A DNA stretch of 64,000 nucleotides from Candidatus Uhrbacteria bacterium (GTDB taxonomy: Bacteria; Patescibacteriota; Patescibacteriia; 2-12-FULL-60-25). Positions within the stretch are counted from its first letter, which is position 1; every line of letters begins with the position of its first letter. The stretch is from contig JADZEJ010000007.1 in the NCBI GenBank assembly GCA_020850575.1, forward strand, positions 1 through 64,000, given 5' to 3'. Of the stretch, positions 5,417 to 23,403 are shown piece after piece. The position numbers and the translations under genes are program-made. The notes under the pieces are model-generated. The model was not told where the DNA came from, did not search any database, and saw nothing but the letters and a program-made list of their open reading frames with translations.

Positions 5417-5516
5417 AATAATGAATACGATAATGACTCATAATCCGCTTTATTAAGCCACAATTTGAGTCTTCAAAAGAAGCATACCGAAGCTCTTTCA
5501 GTGCGTCAAGTAACTA

Positions 5517-6797
5517 TTATGGAATGAATGATTTAAAAATTTTCTTTAACGGATTTCCAATTTTTCCTAAAAGTTCCCCTCCTTTACTCGCTACCGATTT
5601 AACATTCCCATACATCGGTACTCCATCCGCCGCACGACGTTCATGTTCAAACTGCCACTGAACCAAACCTAAAGAAGTACTAAAAGCAGAATCCTGAATC
5701 ATTTCAGGTAAAGAACTGGAAATATGACACACGCCATGCGAACAAGGTAAGCGCATAATTTTTTTCCCAACTTCTATCATCCCTGGTAACTTTGCGCCGC
5801 CTCCCGTTAAAACGATACCGGATGGAAGCAACCCTTCTCGATCGATTTTTCTCAATTCAATTACTACTTTTTCAAACATCTCTTCAACACGTGCTTCAAT
5901 AATATCTGCCACTAAACGAAATGAAACTTCTTCACTTGTATCGCCGCCGTAATCAATCAAATCAAAAACACCTGATCGTTTAGGAACAGACTCAGCAAAT
6001 GCAGTTCCATGAACACGTTTTATTTTTTCAGCTGTTTCCAAAGAAACGCGCAAACCGATCGCTAAATCATTTGTGATATGATCTGCTCCGATTGGAATCG
6101 TCACCGCACGTAATAATTCTCCATTTTCATAAACTGAAACACCGGTTGTTGCTCCACCGATAGTTACTACACAAACACCAAGCTCACGTTGTCGTGCTGT
6201 CGTAATCGCTTCACCGGAAGCTAAAGGCGCATACACAAGCTCCGTAATATCAAGACCAGTGCGGAATACGGCACGCGTAAAATTACGTACATGACTCGAC
6301 AAACCCTGAACAATTAATGCATCAACTTCCAACCGAATCCCTTGCATACCTACAGGATCCTTTATTCCGGATTGACCATCAATACTAAAACTACGCGGTA
6401 AAACATGTAAAATTTCTTGATTTGCAGGATTAACAAATGTTTTCGCAGCTTCAATTGCACGAGCAACATCTTCCGCACGAATATCACCATCCGTACGTGA
6501 AACTCCAATAACACCCCGAGCATCTTGAGAAGTTATATATGTTCCACCAATACCAACTGCGGCTTCAACCAATGGCTCGCCAATAACACGCTCAGCCTGT
6601 TCGAGGCAGCTTGAAATAGCGGAAACAGTGTCTTCAATCGAACTCACACTCCCTTTTGAAACGCCTTGAGATGCTACCTCGGCGCCACCAACGATATTCA
6701 AAGACAACCGCCGATCTTGACCGACAGAAACTTTTCCTGCAGCAAGTCGAATGGCAGTTGTACCGACATCAAGACCTATGAGTAATCGTTCTTTCAT
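5517..6797 (-). CDS. ftsA: Cell division protein FtsA
   Basis: Actin-fold ATPase that tethers FtsZ to the membrane. The phosphate-1 motif GLDVGTTAIRLAAG is at residues 8-21, SHVRNFTRAVF marks the 1C domain, and VLTGGGAKLPG near 335 is the adenosine-binding motif. The C-terminus is a short amphipathic basic helix (NPLKKIFKSFIP), the expected membrane anchor. The 426-residue length is normal. The start codon overlaps the dgkA stop as ATGA, so translation is probably coupled. Gene order ybeY-dgkA-ftsA-ftsZ joins wall-lipid recycling to division. Confidence 0.97.
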   Translation of the reverse strand: MKERLLIGLDVGTTAIRLAAGKVSVGQDRRLSLNIVGGAEVASQGVSKGSVSSIEDTVSAISSCLEQAERVIGEPLVEAAVGIGGTYITSQDARGVIGVSRTDGDIRAEDVARAIEAAKTFVNPANQEILHVLPRSFSIDGQSGIKDPVGMQGIRLEVDALIVQGLSSHVRNFTRAVFRTGLDITELVYAPLASGEAITTARQRELGVCVVTIGGATTGVSVYENGELLRAVTIPIGADHITNDLAIGLRVSLETAEKIKRVHGTAFAESVPKRSGVFDLIDYGGDTSEEVSFRLVADIIEARVEEMFEKVVIELRKIDREGLLPSGIVLTGGGAKLPGMIEVGKKIMRLPCSHGVCHISSSLPEMIQDSAFSTSLGLVQWQFEHERRAADGVPMYGNVKSVASKGGELLGKIGNPLKKIFKSFIP

Positions 6798-7171
6798 ACA
6801 CGACCTAAAACAATGTGTACATATGGAGCTAAAATTAACGCTCCGATAACCGCGGCGAACGCTGCGGCAACCAAAACTGCCGCAGCCATCAAATCCTTAA
6901 TTTCTTTCACATAAGAATGAAGCCGAGGTTTCACTAAATCTACTAAACGTTCGACCATGCTGTTTACTAATTCTAACACAAGCATCGTAGCCGTGACCAT
7001 AAGCAATAAAATGCGTTCCCAGCTCTCAAGTGGAAGTACGGTTATTGCAATACAAACAACTAATGTTGCGGCAACTAGTATACGAAAACTCCGTTCATCA
7101 CGAAAAGCAGTGAGAAGACCATCCCAAGCATGTGAAAAACTTTTTCCGATTTCTATCAAGGCTTTGTTCAT
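6794..7171 (-). CDS. dgkA: DgkA-type lipid kinase (undecaprenol or diacylglycerol kinase)
   Basis: Small integral-membrane kinase with three hydrophobic segments (about residues 31-48, 52-72 and 93-118). The family signature appears as ELVNSMVERLVD followed by KEIKDLMAAAVL. These supply the catalytic Glu and the Asn/Glu metal ligands. In Gram-positive-like bacteria this family phosphorylates undecaprenol for wall synthesis. That is the likelier role here, beside ftsA and with murA and rodA in the window, but substrate choice cannot be read from sequence. It starts inside the ybeY stop (ATGA) and ends in TGA overlapping the ftsA start. Confidence 0.92.
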   Translation of the reverse strand: MNKALIEIGKSFSHAWDGLLTAFRDERSFRILVAATLVVCIAITVLPLESWERILLLMVTATMLVLELVNSMVERLVDLVKPRLHSYVKEIKDLMAAAVLVAAAFAAVIGALILAPYVHIVLGRV

Positions 7172-7599
7172 ACAAGAAGCGTCTTAGCAAGTACTTTTTC
7201 TTGAAGAGTAAACATTTCTATCTCCGTTTCATCTGTTGCGTGATCATAACCCAGTAAATGAAGCATCCCATGAATAACAACACGTACTATTTCTTCTTCT
7301 ATAGGTATGCCGCGACGAGCTGCTTCTCCACGCACATAAGATACTGAAACAAAAATATCTCCCCAACTCTGTCGAATACCGGGCACTTCTGGTTCTGAAA
7401 AAGAAAGTACGTCAGTAGCTCTATCTTGGTTTCGATATTGTTTATTCAAACTGCGCATCTTTGTATCGGAAACGAAAGTAACCGTAACCGATCCTTTTAC
7501 GTGTTTTTTTGCTAAACGAATTGTTGTTTGACAAGCTCGTTGAAGCAATTCCCGTCCAACACGTAAGGGCAAGCGCCCAATTAGTACTATTTCAAGCAT
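7168..7599 (-). CDS. ybeY: Endoribonuclease YbeY
   Basis: Zinc-dependent single-strand endoribonuclease used in 16S rRNA 3'-end maturation and ribosome quality control. The metal site H-x3-H-x5-H is complete: His110, His114 and His120 in VIHGMLHLLGYDH. The upstream ATDVLSFSEP motif at residues 61-70 is also canonical. The length of 143 is normal. It ends in TGA overlapping the dgkA start and begins 5 bp after the stop of the FN3 protein gene. It is therefore the first housekeeping gene after the surface island. Confidence 0.97.
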   Translation of the reverse strand: MLEIVLIGRLPLRVGRELLQRACQTTIRLAKKHVKGSVTVTFVSDTKMRSLNKQYRNQDRATDVLSFSEPEVPGIRQSWGDIFVSVSYVRGEAARRGIPIEEEIVRVVIHGMLHLLGYDHATDETEIEMFTLQEKVLAKTLLV

Positions 7600-7604
7600 G
7601 TGAA

Positions 7605-8975
7605 TTATGGAGAAACGCTTCCCGATTCAGTACTTGTTGTGAAGTTAACTGCTTCCGGCTGCGAAATTACACTTGTTGTAGTTGCTGCCGGTTCTGTTGA
7701 AGTAACTGCTTCAGGCTGTGAAATAACCCCTGTCGTAGTAGCCGCAGGTTCAAATGGCAATGGTTCTGCTGACACCACATTTGGTGCCAATTGCGGCAAA
7801 CCACGTAACTCCAACGAGTTCATCATGAGTGAAAACAAAGTTTGATAATTAATAAATGGTTCACCTTCTAACACGTAATTGAAGACAAAAATTTTATCAC
7901 CCCATGGTAGATAACGTGTTAATAAATCGGCTCCAATAATACCTTCATATCCACGCTTGGTTCTGTATTTCAATACATGTTCAGCCTTAACATTTGGATT
8001 TTTTTGCAAATACCAATCCAAAATTGCTAATTGTTTCGGATTATCTTCGACTGATATTTCAAAATGTTCTTTTCCGGCTGTTTTTACACTCGCTTTACTT
8101 CCATCTTTGATCGTCAAAGTAAATATCCAGTCATTTGGCAATTGAAAAGAATAGCCGATACTTGCATCAACTTGCTTCACAAGTTTTGCGTCCAATAATC
8201 GAGCTGGAGCACGTCCATTTGGATTATATAAATGAAAAGCTTCATTCCCATCCAAAAAACCATCATTGTCGGTATCTGGATTCTTCGGATCTGAATGAAG
8301 TAATGCTTCTTCAAGATCAGTTAATCCGTCAGAGTCAGTATCCAATCCGGCAGGAGGTAATTTTGGAGCCGGAGGTGCTGGCGGCGGCAATGATTGAATC
8401 GTCACTGCGACTTCTATGGTTACTGGCGATTCCCCGCCTGAATTACGAGCGCTTACTCGATAACGATAGTTTTTTCCTGCTTGAACTGATGCATCGATGT
8501 ACGATGTGCTATTCGGAGGTAGGCTGGTCAAATCAACAAAAGTTCCATCGTTTTCAGCACGTTCAATACGAAATCCGGACTCGGATGAAGCATTATCGAC
8601 CCACATCAAACTCGCAGTCTGAGGATTAGTCGACGTAACCGTCAAATTTGTAGGGGCTTCAGGCGCTACAACAGGAGGCGGAACATCCGGAGGTTTCTGT
8701 GTAACCGGCGGTTGAATGACCGGCTTCGGAAAAAGCGTATCTCGAAAGAAATAAACTCCAACACCACCCGCAATCAAAAATAATACTAGAACTCCGATCA
8801 CAATGAAAACACCGTGACGCGCCGGGGGATGCGTTAAACCTTCTGTTTTTTTTGTAGGGTCTGGAATTTTTGCTTTTAAGGCAGCACCATAAAAAGCCTC
8901 GGGGATCACATGAATCTCAGGCTCTGTCGTAACAGTCTGAGATGATTGTACATTTAGTAAAGGTGCTTCGGCCAT
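7605..8975 (-). CDS. Membrane-anchored FN3 / thrombospondin type 3 repeat surface protein
   Basis: A 456-residue type II-like anchored protein. A cytoplasmic tail of about 53 residues precedes one membrane helix (54-75). Then come a Pro-rich stalk, a fibronectin type III domain (about 104-193, starting APTNLTVTST and ending in a VTIEVAV strand) and two thrombospondin type 3-like calcium loops (DTDSDGLTD, DTDNDGFLD) near 212-245. An alpha/beta domain follows (about 255-395), then a Thr/Ser/Pro-rich tail with a duplicated 19-residue unit. It is paralogous in layout to the next gene upstream (8986-10101). It probably displays calcium-stabilised domains at the cell surface. The ligand is unknown. 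Confidence 0.88.
   Translation of the reverse strand: MAEAPLLNVQSSQTVTTEPEIHVIPEAFYGAALKAKIPDPTKKTEGLTHPPARHGVFIVIGVLVLFLIAGGVGVYFFRDTLFPKPVIQPPVTQKPPDVPPPVVAPEAPTNLTVTSTNPQTASLMWVDNASSESGFRIERAENDGTFVDLTSLPPNSTSYIDASVQAGKNYRYRVSARNSGGESPVTIEVAVTIQSLPPPAPPAPKLPPAGLDTDSDGLTDLEEALLHSDPKNPDTDNDGFLDGNEAFHLYNPNGRAPARLLDAKLVKQVDASIGYSFQLPNDWIFTLTIKDGSKASVKTAGKEHFEISVEDNPKQLAILDWYLQKNPNVKAEHVLKYRTKRGYEGIIGADLLTRYLPWGDKIFVFNYVLEGEPFINYQTLFSLMMNSLELRGLPQLAPNVVSAEPLPFEPAATTTGVISQPEAVTSTEPAATTTSVISQPEAVNFTTSTESGSVSP
7647..7760. repeat. 57-bp imperfect tandem duplication
   Basis: Two adjacent copies with period 57 encode a 19-residue unit beginning EPAATTT near the C-terminus of the FN3 protein. The copies differ at several third positions and one non-synonymous site (TTTG versus TTTS), so the duplication is not brand new. 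Confidence 0.8.
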
Positions 8976-8985
8976 ATGAAAAATA

Positions 8986-10101
8986 TTACTGAGCTATACG
9001 AACAGATTGAATGATCATGCGAATCAACGTACGAAACGCCGGTGTCATCATAGGATCAGCCGGAGTTAACACGAATCGTGTCTTTGGTAATTTTACGTCG
9101 CCTGAAAGACCATTTTCACCAAGAATAGCCTGAAACTCATTTTTTGTAGTCAAAGTAGTTCCTAATATTGAGCTTGCAACCCCTCCATCATACATAGATA
9201 AGATAAATCTATCACCACCTTGTGTTTGTATCGTTGCTGTCACATCCGTTTGATCAATTAAATTCCATACGACAGGCATCAAAAAGGTTACACCTGCCCA
9301 ACGCACCACCTTGATCGAAGCTAAAGACATGATTGTTCCCGCTTTTTCAAGAGGATTATACAAATCTCCAATTTCTGCTGAATCTGAAAAACCGTCATTA
9401 TCGGTATCAATGATTGTCAAATTTGTCCCTAAAATCGTTTCTTCTGCATCCGTCAAGCCATCACCATCAGTATCCGTCGTAGAAGTAAAATTAGGTATTG
9501 ATGGTGGTGACAACGAAGTATCGGTATCAACGACCGGTGGTGGGACAATTGGCGTCGGTGGTGGAATGTTTGGCGGTGCACTTGGCGGCGATTGTGTATT
9601 ACTTGCATCCGTATTTTCAATAGAATTCAAATTCGTATTTTCTTGTATTGGATTTGTTTCCGTAACTGGGGGCGTATTCACCAACGGTTGAGCGACTTGG
9701 TTTGTTGATGTATTTGTTGTTTTCGTTAAAGCAATTGCACGAGCTTCTTCTTCAGCAGCCGGACGAATGACAAGCATGTAATACACCCCACCCCCAATTC
9801 CACCTAATAACAATAAAACAACAAACACACCAATGATAATCTTTCCCACCGAACGACCGGAATGATTCTGTGATTCCACCGATGTATTTTCAAGAGTACT
9901 TGAAGAACGAGTATCAATAGATGCATCGGGTACATTCGAAAAAATATCTTCCGGTTCGCGCACACCTGTTTCATTTCCTAATACTGGCTTCGGTGTTTGA
10001 ATTGATTGTGCTCGTGGTACTGGTTGTGGATCACGCGGAGGTGCGGATGACGGAGTCTGGGCTGGTTCGATGGGGAGATTTGAAGGTGTTGAATCAAACA
10101 T
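8986..10101 (-). CDS. Membrane-anchored thrombospondin type 3 repeat surface protein
   Basis: A 371-residue protein. A Pro/Ser-rich cytoplasmic tail of about 85 residues precedes one membrane helix (GKIIIGVFVVLLLLGGIGGG, about 86-108). A low-complexity Thr/Asn/Pro stalk follows to about 210. Two calcium loops (DTDGDGLTD and DTDNDGFSD) sit near 211-243, and then a compact domain reaches the end (about 250-371). It has the same order of parts as its neighbour at 7605-8975, minus FN3, and both place a SxSP/NP segment after the calcium loops. The shared plan suggests duplication and divergence. Function at the surface is inferred only from topology. Confidence 0.87.
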   Translation of the reverse strand: MFDSTPSNLPIEPAQTPSSAPPRDPQPVPRAQSIQTPKPVLGNETGVREPEDIFSNVPDASIDTRSSSTLENTSVESQNHSGRSVGKIIIGVFVVLLLLGGIGGGVYYMLVIRPAAEEEARAIALTKTTNTSTNQVAQPLVNTPPVTETNPIQENTNLNSIENTDASNTQSPPSAPPNIPPPTPIVPPPVVDTDTSLSPPSIPNFTSTTDTDGDGLTDAEETILGTNLTIIDTDNDGFSDSAEIGDLYNPLEKAGTIMSLASIKVVRWAGVTFLMPVVWNLIDQTDVTATIQTQGGDRFILSMYDGGVASSILGTTLTTKNEFQAILGENGLSGDVKLPKTRFVLTPADPMMTPAFRTLIRMIIQSVRIAQ

Positions 10102-10125: not shown

Positions 10126-10449
10126 TTACTTAGACTGTACAAATCCATCCGGCGTTAAAATCGGTTGACCAACTGGCAATTTCGTAGGAATTACAACGGA
10201 TGGGTTTTGTGGTGGCGGACCATGTGGCAACTGATCATACGGAACTGGAACATATCCATTATCTCTCGAATTACCTGTATTGGAAACACCCTTTTTTTCT
10301 TGGGGTTTTGTGCTGTTACGAATGCCCGTCCCTTTAATCGGTAAGAAATCCGCTTCCGGTGTATTCCTTACACGAAGAAACCACACAATGCCAATAAGCA
10401 TTATAAAAGTAAAAATGATTCCGAATGTGATAAGTAAACGATGTTTCAT
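10126..10449 (-). CDS. Small membrane-anchored protein, 107 aa
   Basis: The start is taken at the ATG at 10447-10449, just after the giant gene stop (10460). An earlier in-frame start would overlap that gene. Residues 4-26 form one hydrophobic helix (LLITFGIIFTFIMLIGIVWFL). The rest is an extracytoplasmic, Pro/Gly/Asn-rich low-complexity tail with no Cys. It lies between the giant protein and the paired calcium-repeat proteins on the same strand with short gaps, so it is likely part of one surface transcription unit. No family is recognised. Confidence 0.7.
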   Translation of the reverse strand: MKHRLLITFGIIFTFIMLIGIVWFLRVRNTPEADFLPIKGTGIRNSTKPQEKKGVSNTGNSRDNGYVPVPYDQLPHGPPPQNPSVVIPTKLPVGQPILTPDGFVQSK

Positions 10450-10459
10450 AAGGAATTTT

Positions 10460-13400
10460 TTACCAATTAAGTTTCTGAAGTTCAGGTGTAGAATATTGAT
10501 TGCATTGATACGCATAGGAATAACATGCTTGACCTTGTGTATGCATATCAGCTCCTTTATTTTGATTGATTACTTCAAAATTACCGGTAGATGGATTCAA
10601 ATCAGCTATATGGAGCGCACCCGTCACCGAAGAAACAGGAGTCACTTTTGTCAATAAATCAGCCGTTGCCAGATAAACGACTCCTCCTTGCTTCGCTAAT
10701 GAAGTAGCTTCGCTTCCGTCACCTTGCCAAACAAAACGTATTGGTTCATTAGTAGGATTATTAATAGAAAATTGTTTATAATTTATGAAACTCGTAAAAG
10801 GAGGATTCTTACCATAACACGATTCCCACTGCGGAAGCTCTGAACAATTTGATTGACCTATTCGTTGACCTTTCAAGAAAATATTACTCTCTCCGAGAGA
10901 ATTAATCCCCAATCCACAAAAATCCTTACACTGTTGTCCAGTTTTTTTGTTTTCTTGAGTACAGTTCATTAAACACGCAGTTGTACCTTCAATCGGGCAA
11001 TCATTAATCGATCCACCTTCACTAGAAGAATAATTCCAACCAAATGTTCTATCGCCAGGTGGATGAATACAGATCATGCGTGTAAATGGTAATTGCGTTC
11101 GATCCCAATATCCGATAGCACGCGGATTAATGTCTCTTGAACAAGCAGAAAATCCATCCGGTCGATTATCATACGAACACAATTGGGATCGAAGTTTATT
11201 ATTACATTTTCCATTTGGATCACTTGAAAATGAACAATACCCCTGACCAGCATCATCAACTGGTAAACTGAAAGCATATGTTTTCGGCAAAATTGTGTGT
11301 AGACTGAAAAAACTTGGAATGAATCCGTTCTTCCAGAAAACAGCTGCATAGGCATCTCCATAAGCTGGTCGTGGAAAAATATTTACATGAGCTGGCTCAG
11401 CTTGATTTGCGTGGAACACTTCATCAAAAGTATTCACACTGAATGTTTCGGAAGTAAACGGAAAATACCCACCTAAAACACCCTCGTCGATTGTGAGCGG
11501 ATACGTATACGGAGAATTTACTTGTCGACGACAATTAGCTGTGCCACCCCCTTTATTAACAGAAACATCAGTGCACGGATTATCCTGATACATATCGATA
11601 ACTAAACGATACGTATTACATTCTGAGCGAGTATTTAAGACACCGAATGTAAAATACCCATCTTCATTCGTGTACATTTCATCTACTTTTATACCTTTAC
11701 TCATTAAACTCACACGTGCATTTGGTACTACTTGTTGATACACAGCATCGTACACATACCCCTTAATCACTCCACTGCCTGAAGAATCGGAACACTTGCC
11801 ACATCCTGAAAATGAACAAGATAATCCACACATTGGTTTTTGAACATTATCATCAGATTTAACAGAAATATTGTACTTAGGTCCTTTTTGTGCGACGCAT
11901 TTCCAAAAATCACCTGAGGTCAACGGAATATTTGATGAATCCCATACATTCATAAATGCTTCATGTGGCGGCACTGTCCCTGGAACTATCATTTTCTTAC
12001 AAGATAAACCGGCACATTCTTTATACATCTGGAAAACCGGCCAAGTCATTCCGACAAGCGGACCACATGAACTGCTCTTGTATTCAGAACTAATCTCAAC
12101 ACCTTCAGGAGGAGTAGCCGGTCCAATAATTCTTGGATTACGCGGGTTCGATGAAAAATCGTAACCAAGAGCTAAACAAGAAACACTTTGAACCTTTGAA
12201 TCCAAACAAGGTTGATTCATACAAACAGTAGGAAAAATTGCCTCGCATAAGTAGTCTGGAGTCCCTGCTGGGCAATTTCCAGCCTGCACGACCGGTGTAT
12301 TACCATCGCATTGTTCTGATCCATTTTTTATACCATCTCCGCAAAAACCTCCCTGTGCGGCCAATAATTTACAAGAATTATTACAATCTAAACACGATGA
12401 ACCATATTCAGCATTACATTTAACCTTGCCATTATCTGCCCCATTATCGCATTCTTCGACTCCTGAATTAACATAACCGTCCCCACATGAATTCTGCTGA
12501 CATATATTCGTACAACTATCATTATTATTTGTATTTCCATCATCACATTTTTCACCTTCATCTAAGATACCATCGCCGCAAGAACCGATCGCAACACAAG
12601 GCGACCAATCAAGATACTGACATTTATTTGCTGCTGATGGATCTGCACAACCTCGAACATGTTGTGTATCGCGTACAGCACCTAATTGATCAGTAACAGT
12701 TTTTCCGACACATGATTGATACATTGGTCCAGGTACAACAGAATATTTATTTGCTGGTGTAACAACAATGGATTGACCACCACCACAAGTCCCTGCCGAA
12801 CCAGGTACAGAACAATCTGCATCAGTTTGACACAGCTTACCAGGCATACCTGAACTACAGATAGCGCTAGGATCAGTTTGCGAATTTCCATCACACTGTT
12901 CATTAGCATTCACTTGTTTATCTCCACATTTTGGTCCAGGACCCTTACAATCAAGTGCACAACTTTCATTCCAAACACCATTCTTTGATCCTTCATCACA
13001 CAATTCTCCTGGTTCAATTTTTCCATTTCCACAAAATTTATCGTATCCGCTACAAGATGGGTTACAGTGTGCATAAGAACCATTTAAGACACCGTCATCA
13101 CATACTTCTTTTGCAACACAGGAACCTTGTATAGTTACTGGATCACTATTTATCGTTTTTTTGTACACACATCCTTGATCATTTACACAACTTTGATTAA
13201 TCGGTGAACCAGGTTCTGTCCATGTACATACTCTATCAATCTTTCCATTTCCACATTGAACAACATCCGTACAGCTTGGATTTTTTGGATCATCTTGATA
13301 TCCCTGACAAGTACTTGAACAAATTTGTAACTTACTTTGATTTGCAGGACATGATTCGGTCGTCTGTTTCGTTTGACCGATTTCACAAACCTCTCCTTGT

Positions 13401-16400
13401 TGCACAATTCCATCACCACAAACACCAGTTTGACCAAACAATGTATTTTTACAAATATCTGAATATTTAAAATTACCACCTGTTTTTTGACAAACGCCTG
13501 ATACCGTTGGCACTTCACCACATGAATCTCCGGCAACGGTACTGCATGCAGTTGCGTCACTTGGGGCACATTCTACACCGGACTTAACACACTTAAAGCA
13601 ATTTAACGGATTAGAACAAACACGACATGATTTATCTCCGGCTAAACCTTCGCCCGCACAAATTCTTCCTCGTGCAGCATCTTCTGTAAAACATCGATAA
13701 TCCGCATTTGGTAAAGGCATATCCCACCAAGAATTTACATTTGTCGGAGGTATTTCAAATTCTGCACCCAACTCATACTGCTTACCAGTATTTAATGCTC
13801 GGTACATGTATAAACGTGAAACGCTACTTGGTAAGGCACCGATTCGAGGACAAGAAAAACTACCTTCAGTTTTATTCCAACAAGAAGCGGGATCAACATT
13901 GTCATCAAAAACAAATTGATTTGAAGAGTCTATTCGACCACCACGACACGCTTCGTTTGTAGGACAATCTGCATTTGAACTACATGGCGTACTAATGGAT
14001 TTTTCACAACGCCCACAGGCAATCATCCGATTGATTGGATCAACTGCACCCCCTAAAATTCCACCCATCTCAGATGTCCACGATGACCAAAGAGAATTAG
14101 TTTGTCCTGGTAAAAAGGTTCCGGTTTTCAAGCTTGGATAATTGACACTAATGTCAATCTTTCCTTTCTCTAAATTCTTCGCCATTCGGAAAAAATCTCC
14201 AATTCGAATAGTATCTCGTGCTAATTTCGCTTTTTGACTTTCACATGAAACTGTTTCATTGCCAAATGTCAAACAATCCCAGTCAGTATTACATCTAATC
14301 GGTCTACCATCATTAAATTCAGGTTTCGCAAAAAGATCATTTGTCGCTTCATTTAAACAAACATTTCCCTGTTGCAAAACATTAATATTAAATGTCATTG
14401 ATTCCAGTAATTGTTTTGCGATAACTTGAGTCGTTTTTTCTGCATTCGGATTAAATGAAAATACAAAGATATTAGAATAAATCTTACTTTCTACACCCGG
14501 ACGATTCGAAATAGCTATGTAAATTGTATTTCCATCGATCAAAGCAGGGTATCCATCAACTAAACTTAATTCAATATCCTCACTGCTAAACCCTTGCGCC
14601 GCATACCATTCTTCCGGTGATAAATGTAATGGATTTTGATAAACACGAATACCAATACCATCTTGTTTTAAGCCTGGAACAGAATCCGGATAAGTCAATA
14701 AATATTGACGAATAATACCTTTATTTACATCATTAAACGTCTTTGGAACAAATGTAATATCCATTGCGGGTAAATCATCCGAATCAGTAGTTGCGCTGCC
14801 GTCATCACGACAATACATCATGAGAAAATTCATCGGTGATGCAAAAGGATCTCCTACTAATTGAGAGGCATTCGATAAATCAGCCTTACTTGGCGAATTA
14901 GCCATGTCTCTAAATGGTGCCGTAGCGACGCCATTTAAAGCTGGCCATGGATTTTGACAAGCCAAAACCGACACCGGCGCAACTCCTTCAATCGCCAAAT
15001 CTTTCGAAGACGGAGTATTGATCGTATCATTTTCCACCTTCATACGAGCCGTTAAAATCGATGTACCGTTAATCTTTCCTGAAACAAATGTTGCATCACT
15101 TGTCGATTGAATTTTATCCAATCCCAAATCAGTTGCTAGCATGACAATCTTTTTTGATTCGGCGCTTGAAGTCCAATGATCCCATTTCCAATCATAACCC
15201 TGGACAGGCGACAACGGTATCGCCTGACCATTTTGAATTGATTGTGCATTTGCCTGAAAAGCACGAGTCTCAACTTCATAATTTGGATTCACAAACAAAA
15301 ACGGATGATCATTCGGAGACGTCGTATCTCTGATCTCAACTTGATTCACAGCGCAAACCTGATTTCCTGTTTTAAATGTCCAAGTTAATTCACCATTGGA
15401 AAAAGATTCAAACTTCTGAACAACACCTTTTGCAGTCATGACGCCTTGCCTATTTTTCTTATCACTATTATCTGTCAAATCTTGATCGCCAAAAAATCGA
15501 ACACGATACTGCGTATTAGGTTTCAGCGCTTGATCCAAGGTAAAAGTAAATAATTTACTGTCTTTATCACCGGCCGATTTTAATTGACCCGTTACACCAC
15601 CTTTGCACCATTTTTCTGCATAAACCGGTTCTCCGGTCAACCAAGCAACAAACGAATCCCATCGTTTTTGCATTCCACCCCAAAAATCAGCCTTGTATGA
15701 CTTCAACACTAAGACCTCAGAAGTACCTTGCGGGCAGTCAGCCGAAACTCCAACGTCTTCAGTAATTTCAAAATTACTTATAGCAACTGCAGCTCGCATT
15801 TCTTCGTTAAAAGCGCCGCTAATCAAAACATTACGACAAACATTTATGGCATTTTTTGGTGGGTATGGTGTAACGACACTTGGTCTTGGTCTACAACAAC
15901 CAACGTCATCCAAACCAAAACCAGCCTCACAACTCGCCTCATCAGTAAAACCGCATTGTAACCCATACACCGCTTTTCCATCTTTCGACTCAACGTTTGC
16001 AGTGATATCTGTCTTCATTAATCCATTTGAATCAGTTTCTGCATCTCCAACTATCGAAGCTAATTGTGTCCGATCAATAAAAGAATCACCGGATTGAATT
16101 GCTTCACATTGTTCGCCTCTTGCTTTTATTCCGTCACTACAAAAACTTGGTGCTGGTTTACCGAATGCATCCACATAATAAGGTGATGATCCTTCATACA
16201 AACATGCTTCACTACACCCATCTCCAGAAACAGAATTTCCGTCATCACAGTCTTTACCTGGTTCATTTGGTACTGAATTTCCACAACAATTTAATTGACC
16301 AACTGATGTACAAAACGCAACACCTGTATGCAAGCATGTTTTAACGTTACATCCGGCAGGAAAAATAGCATTGTTTTGCGCATCAACTCCGGTGGCTTCA

Positions 16401-19400
16401 CAAGCCTCACCAGGTTCTAGTTTAAGATTTCCACAAACAGCGTACAAAACACTCTTTGATTTCGAACCTTCATGCAAACACATTGCGCTGCATCCATCTC
16501 CTGAAACGGAATTTCCGTCATCACAATCTTTACCATCACCTAAAACATCATAATTTCCACATGAACTTAAACCTGCTAATGCACCCAAGTGTTTACAGCT
16601 TTCGCTACATCCACGAAACTGTCGCAATTTACACTCTCCTCCGGCAGCAATACAAGCATCTTTTTGTGTTTGTAATAAACAAGTCGCAAACTCAGGGACC
16701 GCAGGTGCACCATTTGTTGGCAATGAAGCACCAACACAAGTAGGTCCATAATCACATTCTTCACCTTTTTGTGGATCAACGATTCCGTTTCCACAAGTAC
16801 TTGATCCTGGATCGGCTAAAATTAAACATGAAGTCGAATCGCATTTGGCACCCAAAATGCCTACGCCAGGTTCACATTCTTCACCGCCATTCGCACCTGC
16901 CGCCAGCAGAAAACAAGCATCACCAGCTGGAGTTTTTCCATTTTTACAATAAGCTGTGTTTGTTGTTTCTATAGTGCCATTACCACACACTGCCGTTTTA
17001 TCCTTAATTGATAATGGTGCACCGGCAAGCAAACAAGAACCTGAACATCCTTCCGGTAATACTCCACCGGTATTTACATTTCCTTTTTTCCACAAAGTAG
17101 CAACTTTAGGATCTGTAACATTCCATGTCGCTTGAGTTGTTTGAACTAATGCTTGCCCTGTCGCGCTACAAGCATCCGTTACACCGTAAGGAGTCGCATT
17201 AAATAACTGTGAAGTCCCAACTCGGGATTCAAATTTTTCTTCTGGAACAACTTCAACTCGATCAGCCACACAGTACGCATCAGGTTCTTGTTTAACCCGA
17301 AACTTCCATGCAAATCCATCTGCCGTATTTAAGCCATCCATCGGAACACCGTTCAAGCCTTTAATTCCATTTGATTGTCCTGCGCCTCCACGAAGCAAAA
17401 CGTGATAAAAAGCACCAGGCGTCATTACTACTTGCGGTTCAATTTCAATTCTACGAAGTTTCGTATCACCCGAAGGAGCTACCAACGAAACTGCTTTAAG
17501 CGCAATTGGCGCTGTAAAATCCGCTGGATTACATTGTTCATTTAAACAACGGTGTACCACAATGTTTCCTAACGTTGTAACACTTGATAGATCCAATGTG
17601 GTACTGAAATTAGCCCAAATTAATGCATTCGTACAAGCTAAATCACAATTTGGTCCATAAGCTAAAACACGCGGTGGAAGAAACCGAACAAATAATTTAG
17701 CCGTTCCAACAACAGGAGAAGATTGAAGTAATTTTGCATTCACATCAACCGGTACATCTCCCGTTTCTTTCAAAGCTACACCTTGTTGAACACATCCTTG
17801 CAAATTCTGATTTGGATTTTTTGAAATTGAAGCTCGATTATCCTCACTGGCTTCCGAACTCCCTGTATACCAACTCCACTGCTTAGTTGAACATTCGACA
17901 TAAATACATTTGTCATCTGAATTAACCGGACTTGCTAGATAATTCGTTGTTTCACCCACATCATGCATTTCATAAGGATTTGGTGCCAAGTTTACATCAT
18001 GTATCTTACTTGGTTCATCCGAATTACGCGTCTTAAAACGAAAACAATATCCTATATCAGCTTTTGTTGCTGTCACGCCACATTCCTTCCTAACTTCCAT
18101 CATAGCTCCATCCGGTCCATTCGCTTTCACATTCGCTAAAATTTGAACAAGATACGTCGTATCTTTTTCCAAAGCGGTATTCTTATTAAATTTAACAATA
18201 TCTTGTGTGTTCCCGGCATGAATCAAATTCAAACCAGAATAAGGAACACTCTCAGTTGTAGCACAGGCATCTGATCCGGTACCTGTACACTTTAACAAAA
18301 GAAAATTCGACGAAACAACCGTTGACGCATTCAATACACGTGAAAAACGAACTTGTATAGCTGAATCCGTCGGAGCTTGATCACCTCCCGCACGACCCAT
18401 CCACGGTGACGGTGATGGATAAGGTGTAGGATCAAGGTCAGGTCGGCATTCTTCAATAACACGTGGAGCAATTGGAATAATTCCAGTCGATGCCTGCCAA
18501 GCATATTGAGCACTCAAAGACGCAACTCCGCATGACTCACTTGCCGGTCTGCAAGCTCCAGTAGGACAACATTGAAAAGAATCTTCTGGACCGCAAATGC
18601 CCGGTGCTTGATTACAATTTAAAACTTGAAAATTCACCTTATTTGATTCTTGACCCTGCACTTTTACCGACATCGAACCTGTAATGGCAAATTTTGGAAC
18701 TATAGTATTCGTTACTAAATCAGTAAAATTATCTTCCACAACTGATTGAACCGTTTCTCCCTTCGCTGCTGAAAAAAAGACGAGTGGTTTTTCGGTACCC
18801 AATCTTTCACCTTCAATCTTTACCGTTGTCTTTTCAGGACCGATAGCTGGATTCAAAGAACAGATACCAGGCTTTGGATTACCATCTTGAATTGTAAAAT
18901 CCATTGAATTCGACAATGCATTATCCGCGCGTCTAAGTGAGACTTTATACACACCATTACCCATCACCTGACTATTCTTAAATAATTGAGGAACTTTAAT
19001 AATGACACTGTCATCTCTCCAAAAACCATTTGCACAAGCTGCAGGAAAACTCGTGTCACCTATTGCTTCAAGTTGTTGAACAGGATCTGTAAATAATACA
19101 AAGCCTTTTGAATAACCAAAATTTTTACCCAAAATCGTTACATATTCTTGTTTTGGTCCAGCATCAGGACTTAAGCTCGCAATAACCGGTGGGGCACCTA
19201 AATTTTTATCAATAACCAAAAAATCAACAGGATTACTTTCTCCGGCTGATGTTTTAATCGTGACCGATTGAATACCAGAATTTGTGACAGGTGATTTAAA
19301 ACGAACAGCAGACGTCGTCCATTGGATAACATTCGTAAGTTCCAATTTACCGAATACAACTTTCGCAGCAGTTGTACCAAAATCCAATCCTCGAGCTTCT

Positions 19401-21028
19401 ATTTCAGTTCCTGGAATGCCGGTATTTGGTTTTAATGCACACAACCCAGGATGAACGGTGTCATCAACAACAAAATCAAGAATCTTTGGACCGATAGCAT
19501 CATCAGTTGAATCGACTAAACCGCTTGAAACATTTTTAATTTGAATTGGACCATTTCCGGCGCCTTCAGGAACTGCAACGACAACTTGAGTATTTCCCCA
19601 GTTTCCTGTATCGGAAACGCATTGCAATGGAGCTTTAGCGATTTTATCATCACTTGCATCACTCGGATTTCCTAAAAAGACAACTTCACCTTCAGTAAAC
19701 CCGAAATTTGTTCCCTTAATAGTAACAAAAGTACCAGGTTTTCCGTTTATCGGATCAATCGAACTGATAACCGGGTGTGCCACACAAATAGATCCCTGAC
19801 AAAAACCAGAAGAACACTCAAAGTTTTGACTACAGCTCCCACCGGAACAAGCACCGCAATAATCCGATGATTGCGGATCTCCACCACAATCCAAGCCAGT
19901 TTCTCCTTCATCTTGTTGACCATTAAAACAATGTTCCGAACGAATAACTACCGTGACCGGACTGCTGGTCGACGTATTAGCATCGATATCATGTGCCACC
20001 GCTGACAATGTATGTTCTCCAAAATTTGTTCCTGCCGTGTCCCAATCAGTTTTTCCGTTAAACGACATTGGAGTTCCTGAAGCGGCATCAATACCAATCT
20101 TACCCGCTGCATCGTAAAATTCAATCAATGAAACTCCAGAATCATCCGTTGCCGCAGCCTGAATCAACTGAATCGAATTAACCGAAACTGACATCCCTGA
20201 AAAGGGATACGTCAACGTAACGTTTGGAGCTTGAACATCAACAACATTCCCCGTTGTAAATGTCGCTGTACATGGAGAAGAAGCCGAACAAATCAAACTT
20301 TGACCTGATAAAGATTTAACCGCTGTAGGAATCGTTACGGTAAATGTTTGATCCGCATCGAAACATTTGCGACTTTGATTTGGTGCAGGGCAAGCTGCCT
20401 CAGGTGTAAATGTAACCAAGGCTCCGTTCGTCTGAAGTGTTCCGGGTACATTCGTTCCGTCAACGGTTTTTATGTTGATTCCACTGACAGTCTGATCATC
20501 GACTGGTTTAGTGAACAACATTTTAATTTCAACATTCCGTATAGAAACCGTTCCTTTCGGAGAGATAGCTTGAACCTGAAATCGTGCTGAACTTGAACCA
20601 CCGCCAAAACCGCCACCAAAACCTGAGTCACCGCCAAAACCACCGCCGCCATCACCTGATGTAGCGCCAAGCAAACGCTCAATAACAAACTTAGTGATTG
20701 CCCACGCCGATAAAATAATAATTAGACCAATAATTGCATTTCGAAGAATCTGTTTTGCGCGGCTAATCTGATCCTCTTTTCCTCCGGAAGTCATCCACAA
20801 AAATCCAGCATACAAAATTAAACAAACTAAAATAATCCCAATTAGTCCAAGCGCAATATTAATAATACGAACAACGATCAATCGTGGGTCAGTACTTGGT
20901 AATTTAATTGTTTGACCCACTTCCTCAAGTCCGGTAGTAACCTGTGCTTGTACAGGCAAAGCTGAAACGCTCAATCCGCCAAACAATGGAAGAGCGAGTG
21001 CGATAAGGAGAAGAAAGCGACGGAGCAT
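10460..21028 (-). CDS. Giant Cys-rich surface protein with VirB2/TrbC-like N-terminus, 3522 aa
   Basis: Residues 1-28 are a signal peptide. Residues 51-78 and 97-118 are two membrane helices joined by a short charged loop (WMTSGGKEDQ), a layout like VirB2/TrbC pilins. A Gly-rich linker (about 121-146) leads to a huge ectodomain. In order it holds an SbsA/Big_5-like Ig domain (about 150-260), a further Ig-like domain (about 265-365) and a small Cys-rich module. Four IPT/TIG-like repeats (about 420-810) and more Big_5-like domains follow. Many Cys-rich modules of the CGNG-x-EPGE-x-CDDGN-SGDGCS type resemble DUF4215 (near 1500, 1600 and 2840). A carboxypeptidase-regulatory-like domain (about 3085-3190) precedes a final domain. 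The Cys content implies extracellular disulfides. Likely role: adhesion or surface structure; inference. Confidence 0.93.
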   Translation of the reverse strand: MLRRFLLLIALALPLFGGLSVSALPVQAQVTTGLEEVGQTIKLPSTDPRLIVVRIINIALGLIGIILVCLILYAGFLWMTSGGKEDQISRAKQILRNAIIGLIIILSAWAITKFVIERLLGATSGDGGGGFGGDSGFGGGFGGGSSSARFQVQAISPKGTVSIRNVEIKMLFTKPVDDQTVSGINIKTVDGTNVPGTLQTNGALVTFTPEAACPAPNQSRKCFDADQTFTVTIPTAVKSLSGQSLICSASSPCTATFTTGNVVDVQAPNVTLTYPFSGMSVSVNSIQLIQAAATDDSGVSLIEFYDAAGKIGIDAASGTPMSFNGKTDWDTAGTNFGEHTLSAVAHDIDANTSTSSPVTVVIRSEHCFNGQQDEGETGLDCGGDPQSSDYCGACSGGSCSQNFECSSGFCQGSICVAHPVISSIDPINGKPGTFVTIKGTNFGFTEGEVVFLGNPSDASDDKIAKAPLQCVSDTGNWGNTQVVVAVPEGAGNGPIQIKNVSSGLVDSTDDAIGPKILDFVVDDTVHPGLCALKPNTGIPGTEIEARGLDFGTTAAKVVFGKLELTNVIQWTTSAVRFKSPVTNSGIQSVTIKTSAGESNPVDFLVIDKNLGAPPVIASLSPDAGPKQEYVTILGKNFGYSKGFVLFTDPVQQLEAIGDTSFPAACANGFWRDDSVIIKVPQLFKNSQVMGNGVYKVSLRRADNALSNSMDFTIQDGNPKPGICSLNPAIGPEKTTVKIEGERLGTEKPLVFFSAAKGETVQSVVEDNFTDLVTNTIVPKFAITGSMSVKVQGQESNKVNFQVLNCNQAPGICGPEDSFQCCPTGACRPASESCGVASLSAQYAWQASTGIIPIAPRVIEECRPDLDPTPYPSPSPWMGRAGGDQAPTDSAIQVRFSRVLNASTVVSSNFLLLKCTGTGSDACATTESVPYSGLNLIHAGNTQDIVKFNKNTALEKDTTYLVQILANVKANGPDGAMMEVRKECGVTATKADIGYCFRFKTRNSDEPSKIHDVNLAPNPYEMHDVGETTNYLASPVNSDDKCIYVECSTKQWSWYTGSSEASEDNRASISKNPNQNLQGCVQQGVALKETGDVPVDVNAKLLQSSPVVGTAKLFVRFLPPRVLAYGPNCDLACTNALIWANFSTTLDLSSVTTLGNIVVHRCLNEQCNPADFTAPIALKAVSLVAPSGDTKLRRIEIEPQVVMTPGAFYHVLLRGGAGQSNGIKGLNGVPMDGLNTADGFAWKFRVKQEPDAYCVADRVEVVPEEKFESRVGTSQLFNATPYGVTDACSATGQALVQTTQATWNVTDPKVATLWKKGNVNTGGVLPEGCSGSCLLAGAPLSIKDKTAVCGNGTIETTNTAYCKNGKTPAGDACFLLAAGANGGEECEPGVGILGAKCDSTSCLILADPGSSTCGNGIVDPQKGEECDYGPTCVGASLPTNGAPAVPEFATCLLQTQKDACIAAGGECKLRQFRGCSESCKHLGALAGLSSCGNYDVLGDGKDCDDGNSVSGDGCSAMCLHEGSKSKSVLYAVCGNLKLEPGEACEATGVDAQNNAIFPAGCNVKTCLHTGVAFCTSVGQLNCCGNSVPNEPGKDCDDGNSVSGDGCSEACLYEGSSPYYVDAFGKPAPSFCSDGIKARGEQCEAIQSGDSFIDRTQLASIVGDAETDSNGLMKTDITANVESKDGKAVYGLQCGFTDEASCEAGFGLDDVGCCRPRPSVVTPYPPKNAINVCRNVLISGAFNEEMRAAVAISNFEITEDVGVSADCPQGTSEVLVLKSYKADFWGGMQKRWDSFVAWLTGEPVYAEKWCKGGVTGQLKSAGDKDSKLFTFTLDQALKPNTQYRVRFFGDQDLTDNSDKKNRQGVMTAKGVVQKFESFSNGELTWTFKTGNQVCAVNQVEIRDTTSPNDHPFLFVNPNYEVETRAFQANAQSIQNGQAIPLSPVQGYDWKWDHWTSSAESKKIVMLATDLGLDKIQSTSDATFVSGKINGTSILTARMKVENDTINTPSSKDLAIEGVAPVSVLACQNPWPALNGVATAPFRDMANSPSKADLSNASQLVGDPFASPMNFLMMYCRDDGSATTDSDDLPAMDITFVPKTFNDVNKGIIRQYLLTYPDSVPGLKQDGIGIRVYQNPLHLSPEEWYAAQGFSSEDIELSLVDGYPALIDGNTIYIAISNRPGVESKIYSNIFVFSFNPNAEKTTQVIAKQLLESMTFNINVLQQGNVCLNEATNDLFAKPEFNDGRPIRCNTDWDCLTFGNETVSCESQKAKLARDTIRIGDFFRMAKNLEKGKIDISVNYPSLKTGTFLPGQTNSLWSSWTSEMGGILGGAVDPINRMIACGRCEKSISTPCSSNADCPTNEACRGGRIDSSNQFVFDDNVDPASCWNKTEGSFSCPRIGALPSSVSRLYMYRALNTGKQYELGAEFEIPPTNVNSWWDMPLPNADYRCFTEDAARGRICAGEGLAGDKSCRVCSNPLNCFKCVKSGVECAPSDATACSTVAGDSCGEVPTVSGVCQKTGGNFKYSDICKNTLFGQTGVCGDGIVQQGEVCEIGQTKQTTESCPANQSKLQICSSTCQGYQDDPKNPSCTDVVQCGNGKIDRVCTWTEPGSPINQSCVNDQGCVYKKTINSDPVTIQGSCVAKEVCDDGVLNGSYAHCNPSCSGYDKFCGNGKIEPGELCDEGSKNGVWNESCALDCKGPGPKCGDKQVNANEQCDGNSQTDPSAICSSGMPGKLCQTDADCSVPGSAGTCGGGQSIVVTPANKYSVVPGPMYQSCVGKTVTDQLGAVRDTQHVRGCADPSAANKCQYLDWSPCVAIGSCGDGILDEGEKCDDGNTNNNDSCTNICQQNSCGDGYVNSGVEECDNGADNGKVKCNAEYGSSCLDCNNSCKLLAAQGGFCGDGIKNGSEQCDGNTPVVQAGNCPAGTPDYLCEAIFPTVCMNQPCLDSKVQSVSCLALGYDFSSNPRNPRIIGPATPPEGVEISSEYKSSSCGPLVGMTWPVFQMYKECAGLSCKKMIVPGTVPPHEAFMNVWDSSNIPLTSGDFWKCVAQKGPKYNISVKSDDNVQKPMCGLSCSFSGCGKCSDSSGSGVIKGYVYDAVYQQVVPNARVSLMSKGIKVDEMYTNEDGYFTFGVLNTRSECNTYRLVIDMYQDNPCTDVSVNKGGGTANCRRQVNSPYTYPLTIDEGVLGGYFPFTSETFSVNTFDEVFHANQAEPAHVNIFPRPAYGDAYAAVFWKNGFIPSFFSLHTILPKTYAFSLPVDDAGQGYCSFSSDPNGKCNNKLRSQLCSYDNRPDGFSACSRDINPRAIGYWDRTQLPFTRMICIHPPGDRTFGWNYSSSEGGSINDCPIEGTTACLMNCTQENKKTGQQCKDFCGLGINSLGESNIFLKGQRIGQSNCSELPQWESCYGKNPPFTSFINYKQFSINNPTNEPIRFVWQGDGSEATSLAKQGGVVYLATADLLTKVTPVSSVTGALHIADLNPSTGNFEVINQNKGADMHTQGQACYSYAYQCNQYSTPELQKLNW

Positions 21029-21040
21029 GAAGGTAAATAA

Positions 21041-22903
21041 TTACGGATGAAGCAAAGTTTTACACTCACCTTTAGTAGCCTGACTATTACAACAATTAGG
21101 ACCCTGGGTCAGCATGTCTGAATAATCCAAAGACCCACACTTTGCCGCAGGGTTAAAACAGTTTTGATAAACATCTTGAACACCGTGAAACACATATGGA
21201 TCGTAAAAATTTAAATCTTGAAAAGTTTTACCAGATGGCAGAAAAACACGATGTTGAATAAATGCACCAGACTTTGGAGGATCAACCGCATTCGGCTGTT
21301 TCGGATCAAAGGTAGTCCCATCTTGATTTAATAAACTCATAGCCACAGTCCACCAAAAAGAATCAACTCTTGTCTCGTCTTTTCCATGTGCATCAAGCAT
21401 AATCGTTTGCGTATTCAATGACGACGAACGTAAACGAGTATCAAACTTTACTTCAAACGGTAAATCAAGCGGTATATTTGAATTCAAACCAGTTTGTGGA
21501 TCGGAACTAGGAATTGTTGCCTCGATCCGTGGTGGTGTCAGTTTGACATCACCAGTTGTTCCAAATTGCCACGAATAATTATCTCCTGGCGGACCTTCCG
21601 CTTTTCCGTCCTTACTACCATCTAAAGAGTTCCCTGCCACACTCACAATTCCATTGTACCCATTACTTGTTAACTCAGCTTGAGGACTATCCGCATTCGC
21701 CAAAGTCGCTGCTTTTGCGACAACTTGTATTGAAGAATCTCCCGGTAAACAAAATACTTCTTGAGCGCATGAATTCGTTCCACATTTTTCTTCTGTTGTA
21801 AATTCAACTGTTCGATATTGATTTGAAATCACAAATGAACCGGCAACCGCACCTGGAGTCCCACCTCCTGCCGAGGTTGATAAAATTTCAATATTTGAAA
21901 AACCATCAGCTGTTTTACCGCTCACTGCCGTCGGATCCATTGCTTTGTCAAAAGTAATTTGAATCACAACATTACGGGCATATAAACCAGCTTGAACCGG
22001 AACGACATCAACGACCTTAGGAGGAACTAAATCAACAACAGTCGAAACTTCAAATGGCCAAATATAACCTGAAGTGAACGCTCCGGAAAACGCAGCTCCG
22101 CCATTCATTTTTTGGATACCAAACGTCCCACCCTTCAATTCAACAGTATATCCGGTTTTCTTTATCGGATTTCCTAAATATTCAACAGGTCGAATAACAA
22201 AAGTTTTTAAATCATCTAAAAAAGTGACACGGGCTGTCGCACTCGTTAATTTCGCCGATTCACCAACAGTTGTTGGGTAAATCTTTATATTAGTATCATT
22301 CAATCCATGAGCGGTGTTACTCGTCGCATCCGTCCAACCTTCTATAAAAGATTCTGGTTTAATCGCTTCTTTAAATGTAATAATAATCGACGTATTCCGA
22401 GGAACATCTGTTGCATTTCGCATTGGTAAATGTGATTCGATAATTCCACCACCTAATGAACCAGAACTCAAAACCAAGCCGCCTGGCTTTGTCCTATAGT
22501 TTCCATTACCACTGCTCCCTCCTCCAAAAAAACTCTGTCCATTTAATAAACCGAAAATAAAATTAGTAATTGCAAAAGCTGATGCAGTAATCAAAAGACC
22601 AATAACGGCTTGTCGAATAGTATCTTTTGATTTCTGCACTTGCTTATCATCTCCAGCTGCCGTCATCCATAAATATCCGGCATACAACATTAAGATCAAA
22701 AAAATGACCCCAAGAAAACCTAAAAAGATATACACGATACGACTAATGATAGTCACTAAATCGGTATTTCCAACTCCTGCCGCTTCAGCAACAATTTGTG
22801 CATTATTTTGTGCATCAGCAACCGACTGCGCCGAAACAGTCGAAACCATAAAACTAAATCCCAAAATAGGGATCATGAAAAGGGACAAAAGAATATTCCG
22901 CAT
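21041..22903 (-). CDS. VirB2/TrbC-like two-helix protein with SbsA Ig-like domains, 620 aa
   Basis: Start at the ATG at 22901-22903, giving a normal signal peptide (MRNILLSLFMIPILGFSFM...). An upstream TTG adds only five residues. After the signal peptide come two membrane helices around LYAGYLWMTAAGDDKQ, nearly the same arrangement as in the 3522-residue protein next to it. A Gly/Ser linker follows, then at least three SbsA/Big_5-like Ig domains (phrases such as IIITFKEAIKPESF, VIQITFDKAMDPTAV and PFEVKFDTRLRSSS mark their edge strands). A Cys-containing C-terminal segment has CGSLDYSDM. It is 12 bp upstream of the giant gene, so the two paralogues are probably co-expressed and may form one assembly. 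Confidence 0.9.
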   Translation of the reverse strand: MRNILLSLFMIPILGFSFMVSTVSAQSVADAQNNAQIVAEAAGVGNTDLVTIISRIVYIFLGFLGVIFLILMLYAGYLWMTAAGDDKQVQKSKDTIRQAVIGLLITASAFAITNFIFGLLNGQSFFGGGSSGNGNYRTKPGGLVLSSGSLGGGIIESHLPMRNATDVPRNTSIIITFKEAIKPESFIEGWTDATSNTAHGLNDTNIKIYPTTVGESAKLTSATARVTFLDDLKTFVIRPVEYLGNPIKKTGYTVELKGGTFGIQKMNGGAAFSGAFTSGYIWPFEVSTVVDLVPPKVVDVVPVQAGLYARNVVIQITFDKAMDPTAVSGKTADGFSNIEILSTSAGGGTPGAVAGSFVISNQYRTVEFTTEEKCGTNSCAQEVFCLPGDSSIQVVAKAATLANADSPQAELTSNGYNGIVSVAGNSLDGSKDGKAEGPPGDNYSWQFGTTGDVKLTPPRIEATIPSSDPQTGLNSNIPLDLPFEVKFDTRLRSSSLNTQTIMLDAHGKDETRVDSFWWTVAMSLLNQDGTTFDPKQPNAVDPPKSGAFIQHRVFLPSGKTFQDLNFYDPYVFHGVQDVYQNCFNPAAKCGSLDYSDMLTQGPNCCNSQATKGECKTLLHP

Positions 22904-22956: not shown

Positions 22957-23403
22957 TTACGAGAGCAACTTCTTAAGAAGTTCTCTTACCTGAACTCCGT
23001 CGGCACCACCACCAATTTTTTTCATTGCAAGTCCCATCGCTTTTCCCATATCCTTAATCTGAGTAATTCCACTTTCCGTAATTGCTTCACGAATAATAGC
23101 TTCAATCTGTTCTTCACTCATCGCTGGTGGTAGATACTTCTCCAAAAGTTCAATTTCTAAACGCTGTTTATCCGCAAGATCAATTCGTCCGGCTCGTTCA
23201 AAATCTTGCAACGCATCCTTATATTGTTTAATCATGGTACGTAAAACTGCCTGAACATCTTCTTCAGTCAATTCTTTGCCCATCGCATCAATTTGTTTAT
23301 TTTTTATAGCCGTTCGCGCCATACGAATAGTCGAAAGAGCTGATTCATTCTTCGCCTTCATTGCTTCTTTAAAATCAGTCTCTAATTGTTCAAGCGTCTT
23401 CAT
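22957..23403 (-). CDS. yqeY: GatB/YqeY-domain protein
   Basis: A 148-residue, all-helical protein matching the stand-alone YqeY family throughout: an N-terminal TDFKEAMKAKN segment, the central LRTMIKQYKDALQDFERAGR and ELLEKYLPPAMSEEQ, and the C-terminal KDMGKAMGLAMKKIGGGADGVQVRELL. The family shares its C-terminal fold with the tail domain of GatB, which binds tRNA. Its own function is not settled. It follows rpsU, the usual pairing in many bacteria, but a hairpin terminator sits between them, so it would rely on readthrough or its own start. Confidence 0.95.
   Translation of the reverse strand: MKTLEQLETDFKEAMKAKNESALSTIRMARTAIKNKQIDAMGKELTEEDVQAVLRTMIKQYKDALQDFERAGRIDLADKQRLEIELLEKYLPPAMSEEQIEAIIREAITESGITQIKDMGKAMGLAMKKIGGGADGVQVRELLKKLLS

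Follow-up and report, generated by a model that had tools for sequence, protein, structure and literature searches.

Conjugation-type pilin hairpins fused to very large arms at a locus conserved across a class of Patescibacteria

Two open reading frames lie 12 bases apart on the minus strand of the window (the whole stretch of DNA that was analysed, 64 kb, with 0 Ns): a giant gene at 10460..21028 (3,522 aa) and, upstream of it, a medium gene at 21041..22903 (620 aa from ATG). All window coordinates given below are on the same strand. The giant protein opens with a signal peptide (about residues 1-29, 20942..21028; cleavage is predicted after ...LPVQA, before Q, from sequence, hydropathy and the invariance of A28 in the alignment), followed by a T4SS_pilin hairpin (residues 48-123; 20660..20887) and a Gly-rich linker (residues 124-148; 20585..20659; low pLDDT at 126-145). 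The medium protein repeats this order of signal, T4SS_pilin hairpin (residues 49-120; 22544..22759) and Gly-rich linker, continued by tandem Ig-like domains and a Cys-containing end; it is 31-50% identical to its relatives along its length, with six Cys invariant. Hydropathy, AlphaFold and PF18895 thus agree with the common N-terminal plan proposed in a first-pass annotation of this DNA, as does the charged loop between the helices, of the form WMT-(S/A)-x-G (WMTSGG and WMTAAG in the two proteins). The marked inequality of the ectodomains also stands, with about 3,400 residues past the hairpin in the giant and about 500 in the medium protein.

Both hairpins pass the curated cut-off of PF18895 (T4SS_pilin, 26.6 bits), the giant with 31.9 bits (residues 55-115) and the medium protein with 34.0 bits (residues 47-116). 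The model NF045849, "pilin-like conjugal transfer protein", gives 41.0 bits for the medium protein and 25.9 for the giant (cut-off 40). PF04956 (TrbC/VirB2) had 0 matches at E 0.001 in the genome concerned, the window proteins included; at E <= 0.01 the N-parts of 6 of 29 relatives match it, and the one whole relative protein that was scored reached 27.0, just below the cut-off of 27.9. The earlier designation of a VirB2/TrbC-like unit is upheld in so far as the unit is a conjugation-type pilin (PF18895); as a family label it is too broad, PF04956 itself being unmatched. Hydropathy resolves three hydrophobic segments per protein, a signal plus two helices. AlphaFold, run with relatives, places a signal helix at residues 2-20 and the hairpin helices at 48-80 and 85-123 in the giant (mean pLDDT 82), and a nearly identical hairpin at 49-81 and 86-120 in the medium protein (mean pLDDT 79.5). 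The three segments, together with a hairpin lying beyond the signal helix, rule out that helix 1 is merely the cleaved signal, an objection that the first-pass annotation had raised against itself. Traits of modular type IV pilins (class III leader, single N-terminal helix) are absent; a Sec-type signal is followed by two helices. A profile search of the hairpin against solved pilin chains gave no meaningful match, and in Foldseek and VIA searches with hairpin-containing models the Ig domain took up the lists, so that no VirB2 structural match was obtained, a negative without weight against a VirB2-type fold. At 620 and 3,522 aa neither protein consists mostly of the pilin domain, as a plain small pilin does; both are pilin-domain fusions, not plain pilins.

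In the arm of the giant, profile scans detected Big_5, TIG and Big_7 domains and Cys-rich repeats. The first Ig-like domain (Big_5, PF13205; CopC/Ig-like fold, Z about 11) occupies residues 149-260 (20249..20584), and the best of three IPT/TIG domains (PF01833) residues 419-492 (19553..19774). Matches to TIGR02232 fall in three stretches, the best-scoring of these Cys-rich repeats of myxo_disulf_rpt/DUF4215 type lying at residues 2811-2845 (12494..12598; TIGR02232 8.8e-17); the DUF4215 match is weak. A conserved stretch of about 280 residues is common to the giants, and in the window giant this core domain spans residues 2003-2342 (14003..15022). It had no match in Pfam or PDB and is found in 104 of 115 class genomes; in 64 it shares a frame with the pilin. 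A type IV pseudopilin, suspected in its second half from an RDxxR...YP motif, was dropped (hhalign probability 8). Two further loci, L062 (1518-4433) and L071 (16006 onward), carry a giant apparently split in two ORFs, of which the next ORF begins with a signal-like segment and holds all or most of the core domain; arm and pilin can thus be separate chains.

A gene for a small protein of 129 aa with one TM segment (10126..10515) overlaps the giant gene at its 3' end, and a similar small ORF occurs at the same place in several relatives. Two partner genes follow. Partner 1 (8986..10101; profile scan, motif and hydropathy) has an EDIF motif in its presumed cytoplasmic N-part, one TM segment and TSP3 repeats outside; partner 2 (7605..8975) has an I-x-x-M/I-P-x-x-F motif, one TM segment, fn3 and TSP3, and a C-terminal domain with which columns 89-195 of the core domain profile align (hhalign probability 94, E 1e-7). 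The two motifs are conserved ahead of the TM helix, also in the relatives L054-L073. That of partner 2 is similar to the tail of FtsZ (here [13 protein letters not shown]), whose gene lies a few genes on, and it possibly binds FtsA. Farther out lie yqeY upstream (22957..23403) and ybeY, dgkA, ftsA and ftsZ downstream (3902..7599), gene names that we assign by sequence recognition.

Among named lineages, the closest relatives of the giant come from Ca. Uhrbacteria, followed by Magasanikbacteria and Falkowbacteria among others, which we take to belong to class ABY1. A profile built from the N-termini of the giants matches all 115 class genomes at E <= 1e-20, a sharing far beyond chance. The pilin lies in a frame of at least 1,500 aa in at least 73 of the 115 among the matches listed, a count of 74 less G060, with frame lengths checked for Ns in the fetched loci only. 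G060 was discarded because its "giant" of 14,266 aa results from a frame that crosses masked Ns; L064 also contains 748 Ns. All 20 fetched loci are syntenic, with a long open frame, in the shared order hisS-rpsU-yqeY-[medium]-GIANT-partners-ybeY-dgkA-ftsA-ftsZ. Upstream of the giant these 20 loci have hisS (20), rpsU (20), lepB (19) and yqeY (18); downstream, within the length available at each locus, they have partner 2 (14), ybeY (12), dgkA (9), ftsA (10) and ftsZ (5). The medium gene is directly upstream of the giant in a subset of loci, and in L077, L088 and L115 a short free pilin gene lies between the two. The arrangement is conserved throughout the class, and the fusion is no peculiarity of this one locus.

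Across the wider phylum matches occur in 65 of 192 genomes, and among the matches listed all frames longer than 1,900 aa fall within the same class. Five genomes outside the class (L151-L154, L157) have the pilin fused to arms in frames of 1.1-1.67 kaa; the arm consists of PKD domains in both of those that were scanned, and four of the five loci (L151-L154) have two neighbouring genes, each with three tandem T4SS_pilin-like hairpins. Here a T4SS pilin and a long arm seem to have been joined a second time, independently.

The genome (1.04 Mb, 7 contigs) holds 13 PF18895 matches: six short pilins in one array (L014), the giant and medium proteins, and others on other contigs. The adjacent pair singled out by the first-pass annotation does consist of two PF18895 carriers, and is an incomplete picture of the set. 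Three of the six short pilins (L014 12231-14480) have Cys-rich segments ahead of the hairpin. The search for VirB4/VirD4-like ATPases that had been proposed returned a VirB4 P-loop domain (PF19044, 91 bits) and a TrwB-like ATPase (PF10412, 45 bits), along with other T4SS parts such as PrgI (PF12666, 36 bits); PF02534 was not found in this genome. A conjugation-type secretion system is present in the genome, and VirB4 was detected in 107 of the 115 class genomes. In one family (G009, G078 and G107) the VirB4 frames measure 1,244-1,299 aa, being interrupted near the P-loop by about 640 extra residues, possibly an intein. A distant group at L015, a clade of its own in the tree, joins the hairpin to domains of peptidoglycan-hydrolase type, partly below curated cut-offs: at L015 7552-15201 (contig C2) and L016 8505-10385, adjoining recG and radA, pilin-like hairpins occur with glucosaminidase, NlpC/P60-like and C39-peptidase-like domains. 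These proteins could supply a VirB1-like function, which is said to be mostly missing.

Three comparisons relate the fused pilins to the free ones. Fused and free pilins are identical at 58 of 81 consensus positions, and their per-column entropies correlate with rho 0.84. Giant and medium hairpins are more similar within a genome than across genomes (0.56 vs 0.46, p 5e-6; 43 pairs, two of them duplicates of the same genome fetched by different routes); relatedness of the sampled genomes may account for part of this similarity. A tree that also served as a test of one origin, built on only 90 columns and with many forks unresolved, places the pilin domains of giants, medium proteins and short pilins among one another. 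The same residues kept, the likeness within genomes, the interleaved tree and the short pilin in the operon point to selection for packing with other pilins, and hence to pilins that present an arm at a T4SS assembly and are modular as the term is used for type IV pilins (PMC8179133).

We therefore favour, with a probability of about one half, the reading that the giant and medium proteins are modular pilins of a chromosomal T4SS that display arms for cell contact, probably in few copies at the tip or base. The Sec pathway would export the chain and the signal would be cleaved; the two pilin helices would remain embedded in the membrane, the charged loop facing inwards and the C-terminus outwards, and the arm with its Ig, TIG and Cys-rich parts would project from the cell. 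The fused pilins would work with the short pilins and with VirB4 and PrgI of the chromosomal T4SS, a few copies probably entering the tip or base of a pilus or pilus-like assembly, where the arm would be presented to a partner cell and the proteins would do the job of VirB5 or of surface adhesins in other T4SSs. Partners 1 and 2, from the same operon, would presumably assemble with the arm. An arm of about 3,400 residues does not fit easily with a subunit that repeats along a pilus. Somewhat more tentative is the extension to a class-wide surface organelle: a T4SS pilus, or an assembly resembling one, would carry at its tip or base one or a few giant modular pilins whose arms run to thousands of residues, would be built together with the partners from the operon next to ftsA/ftsZ, and would have arisen again, with PKD arms, in another class.

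Alternatively, the hairpin might have been co-opted only to hold the large surface arms in the membrane by its two helices, and would then play no role in building the T4SS. The giant locus adjoins neither virB4 nor the short-pilin array in its own genome, the giant is kept in 5 of the 8 class genomes without detected VirB4 (in assemblies that are mostly fragmented), and the arm far exceeds the pilin in size, all of which such an anchor would accommodate. An anchor would need hydrophobicity only, however, and hairpin and loop residues are kept as in free pilins, giant and medium hairpins are alike within genomes, and pilin genes are associated in the relatives and in another class; we regard the anchor as a rather unlikely account, though a serious one.

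Distinctly less probable is an envelope, S-layer-like or septal complex of the medium protein, the giant and partners 1 and 2, linked to FtsA/FtsZ through the cytoplasmic motifs of the partners. The core domain and the ftsA/ftsZ synteny could point to such an envelope role instead of a T4SS: in most loci long enough to show it, the operon-like order continues into ybeY-dgkA-ftsA-ftsZ, the partner 2 motif is like the FtsZ tail, and a Foldseek search with the model of the giant's N-part ranks the S-layer protein SbsC first. Ig folds are common, however, so that the SbsC match says little; the motif spacing is unlike that of FtsZ, the gene order is perhaps mere co-transcription, and the pilin hairpin is left unexplained. 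That there is no real feature, only misassembly or a chance likeness of two hydrophobic helices, deserves hardly any credence. Short hydrophobic hairpins do match many profiles weakly, as in weak Cyt_bd_oxida_II matches, but curated cut-offs are passed here, the window has no Ns, and conservation across the class, with every fetched locus syntenic and long-framed, refutes both chance and misassembly.

Patescibacteria depend on other cells, and the fused pilins, as modular pilins of the T4SS, may be a means of gripping them. According to the accessible parts of a survey of Patescibacteria T4SSs, no PrgB-type adhesin was detected (PMC12102498), which leaves an adhesin role free to be filled; the same text cites the T4SS as essential in the one strain tested. 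T4SS pilins are among the highly expressed genes in other Patescibacteria (PMC10936435). For the question of how the Patescibacteria T4SS makes contact, giant-arm pilins at one class-wide locus are concrete, testable candidates.

The first-pass annotation knew of no described machine with this architecture. As to the machine this does not hold, since Patescibacteria T4SSs with arrays of VirB2-like pilins are published (PMC12102498; review PMC12857230); as to the fusions it does, for no description of T4SS pilins fused to giant arms was found in the literature searched, most subscription papers being outside its scope. A single paper in that literature names PF18895 or T4SS_pilin. The published systems share with the present one the PF18895 pilins, VirB4, PrgI/VirB3, the phylum and divergent pilin arrays like the six short pilins here; pilins with giant ectodomains, the hisS-ftsZ locus and the core domain are not described in the accessible parts of these papers, which focus on genes near virB4. 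The Mbov_0395 family (NF045849), whose cut-off the medium protein passes, has a similar two-helix pilin-like unit, but in a model of 80 positions without a large ectodomain. The giant membrane proteins of Vampirococcus lugosii (PMC8080830) are comparable in that they belong to an epibiont of the Patescibacteria, lie at the surface, measure 1,392-4,163 aa and are proposed for host attachment; they come from a different lineage, and the accessible text does not mention a T4SS_pilin domain. Modular type IV pilins such as PilB of Streptococcus sanguinis (PMC8179133) likewise graft a functional module on a pilin for display, but on an unrelated pilin with a single N-terminal helix and a class III leader, whereas the fusions here have a Sec signal, a two-helix T4SS pilin and an arm of up to thousands of residues. 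They would work alike without being members of that group and, if our reading is true, would carry the principle of modular pilins beyond type IV pili to those of conjugation type.
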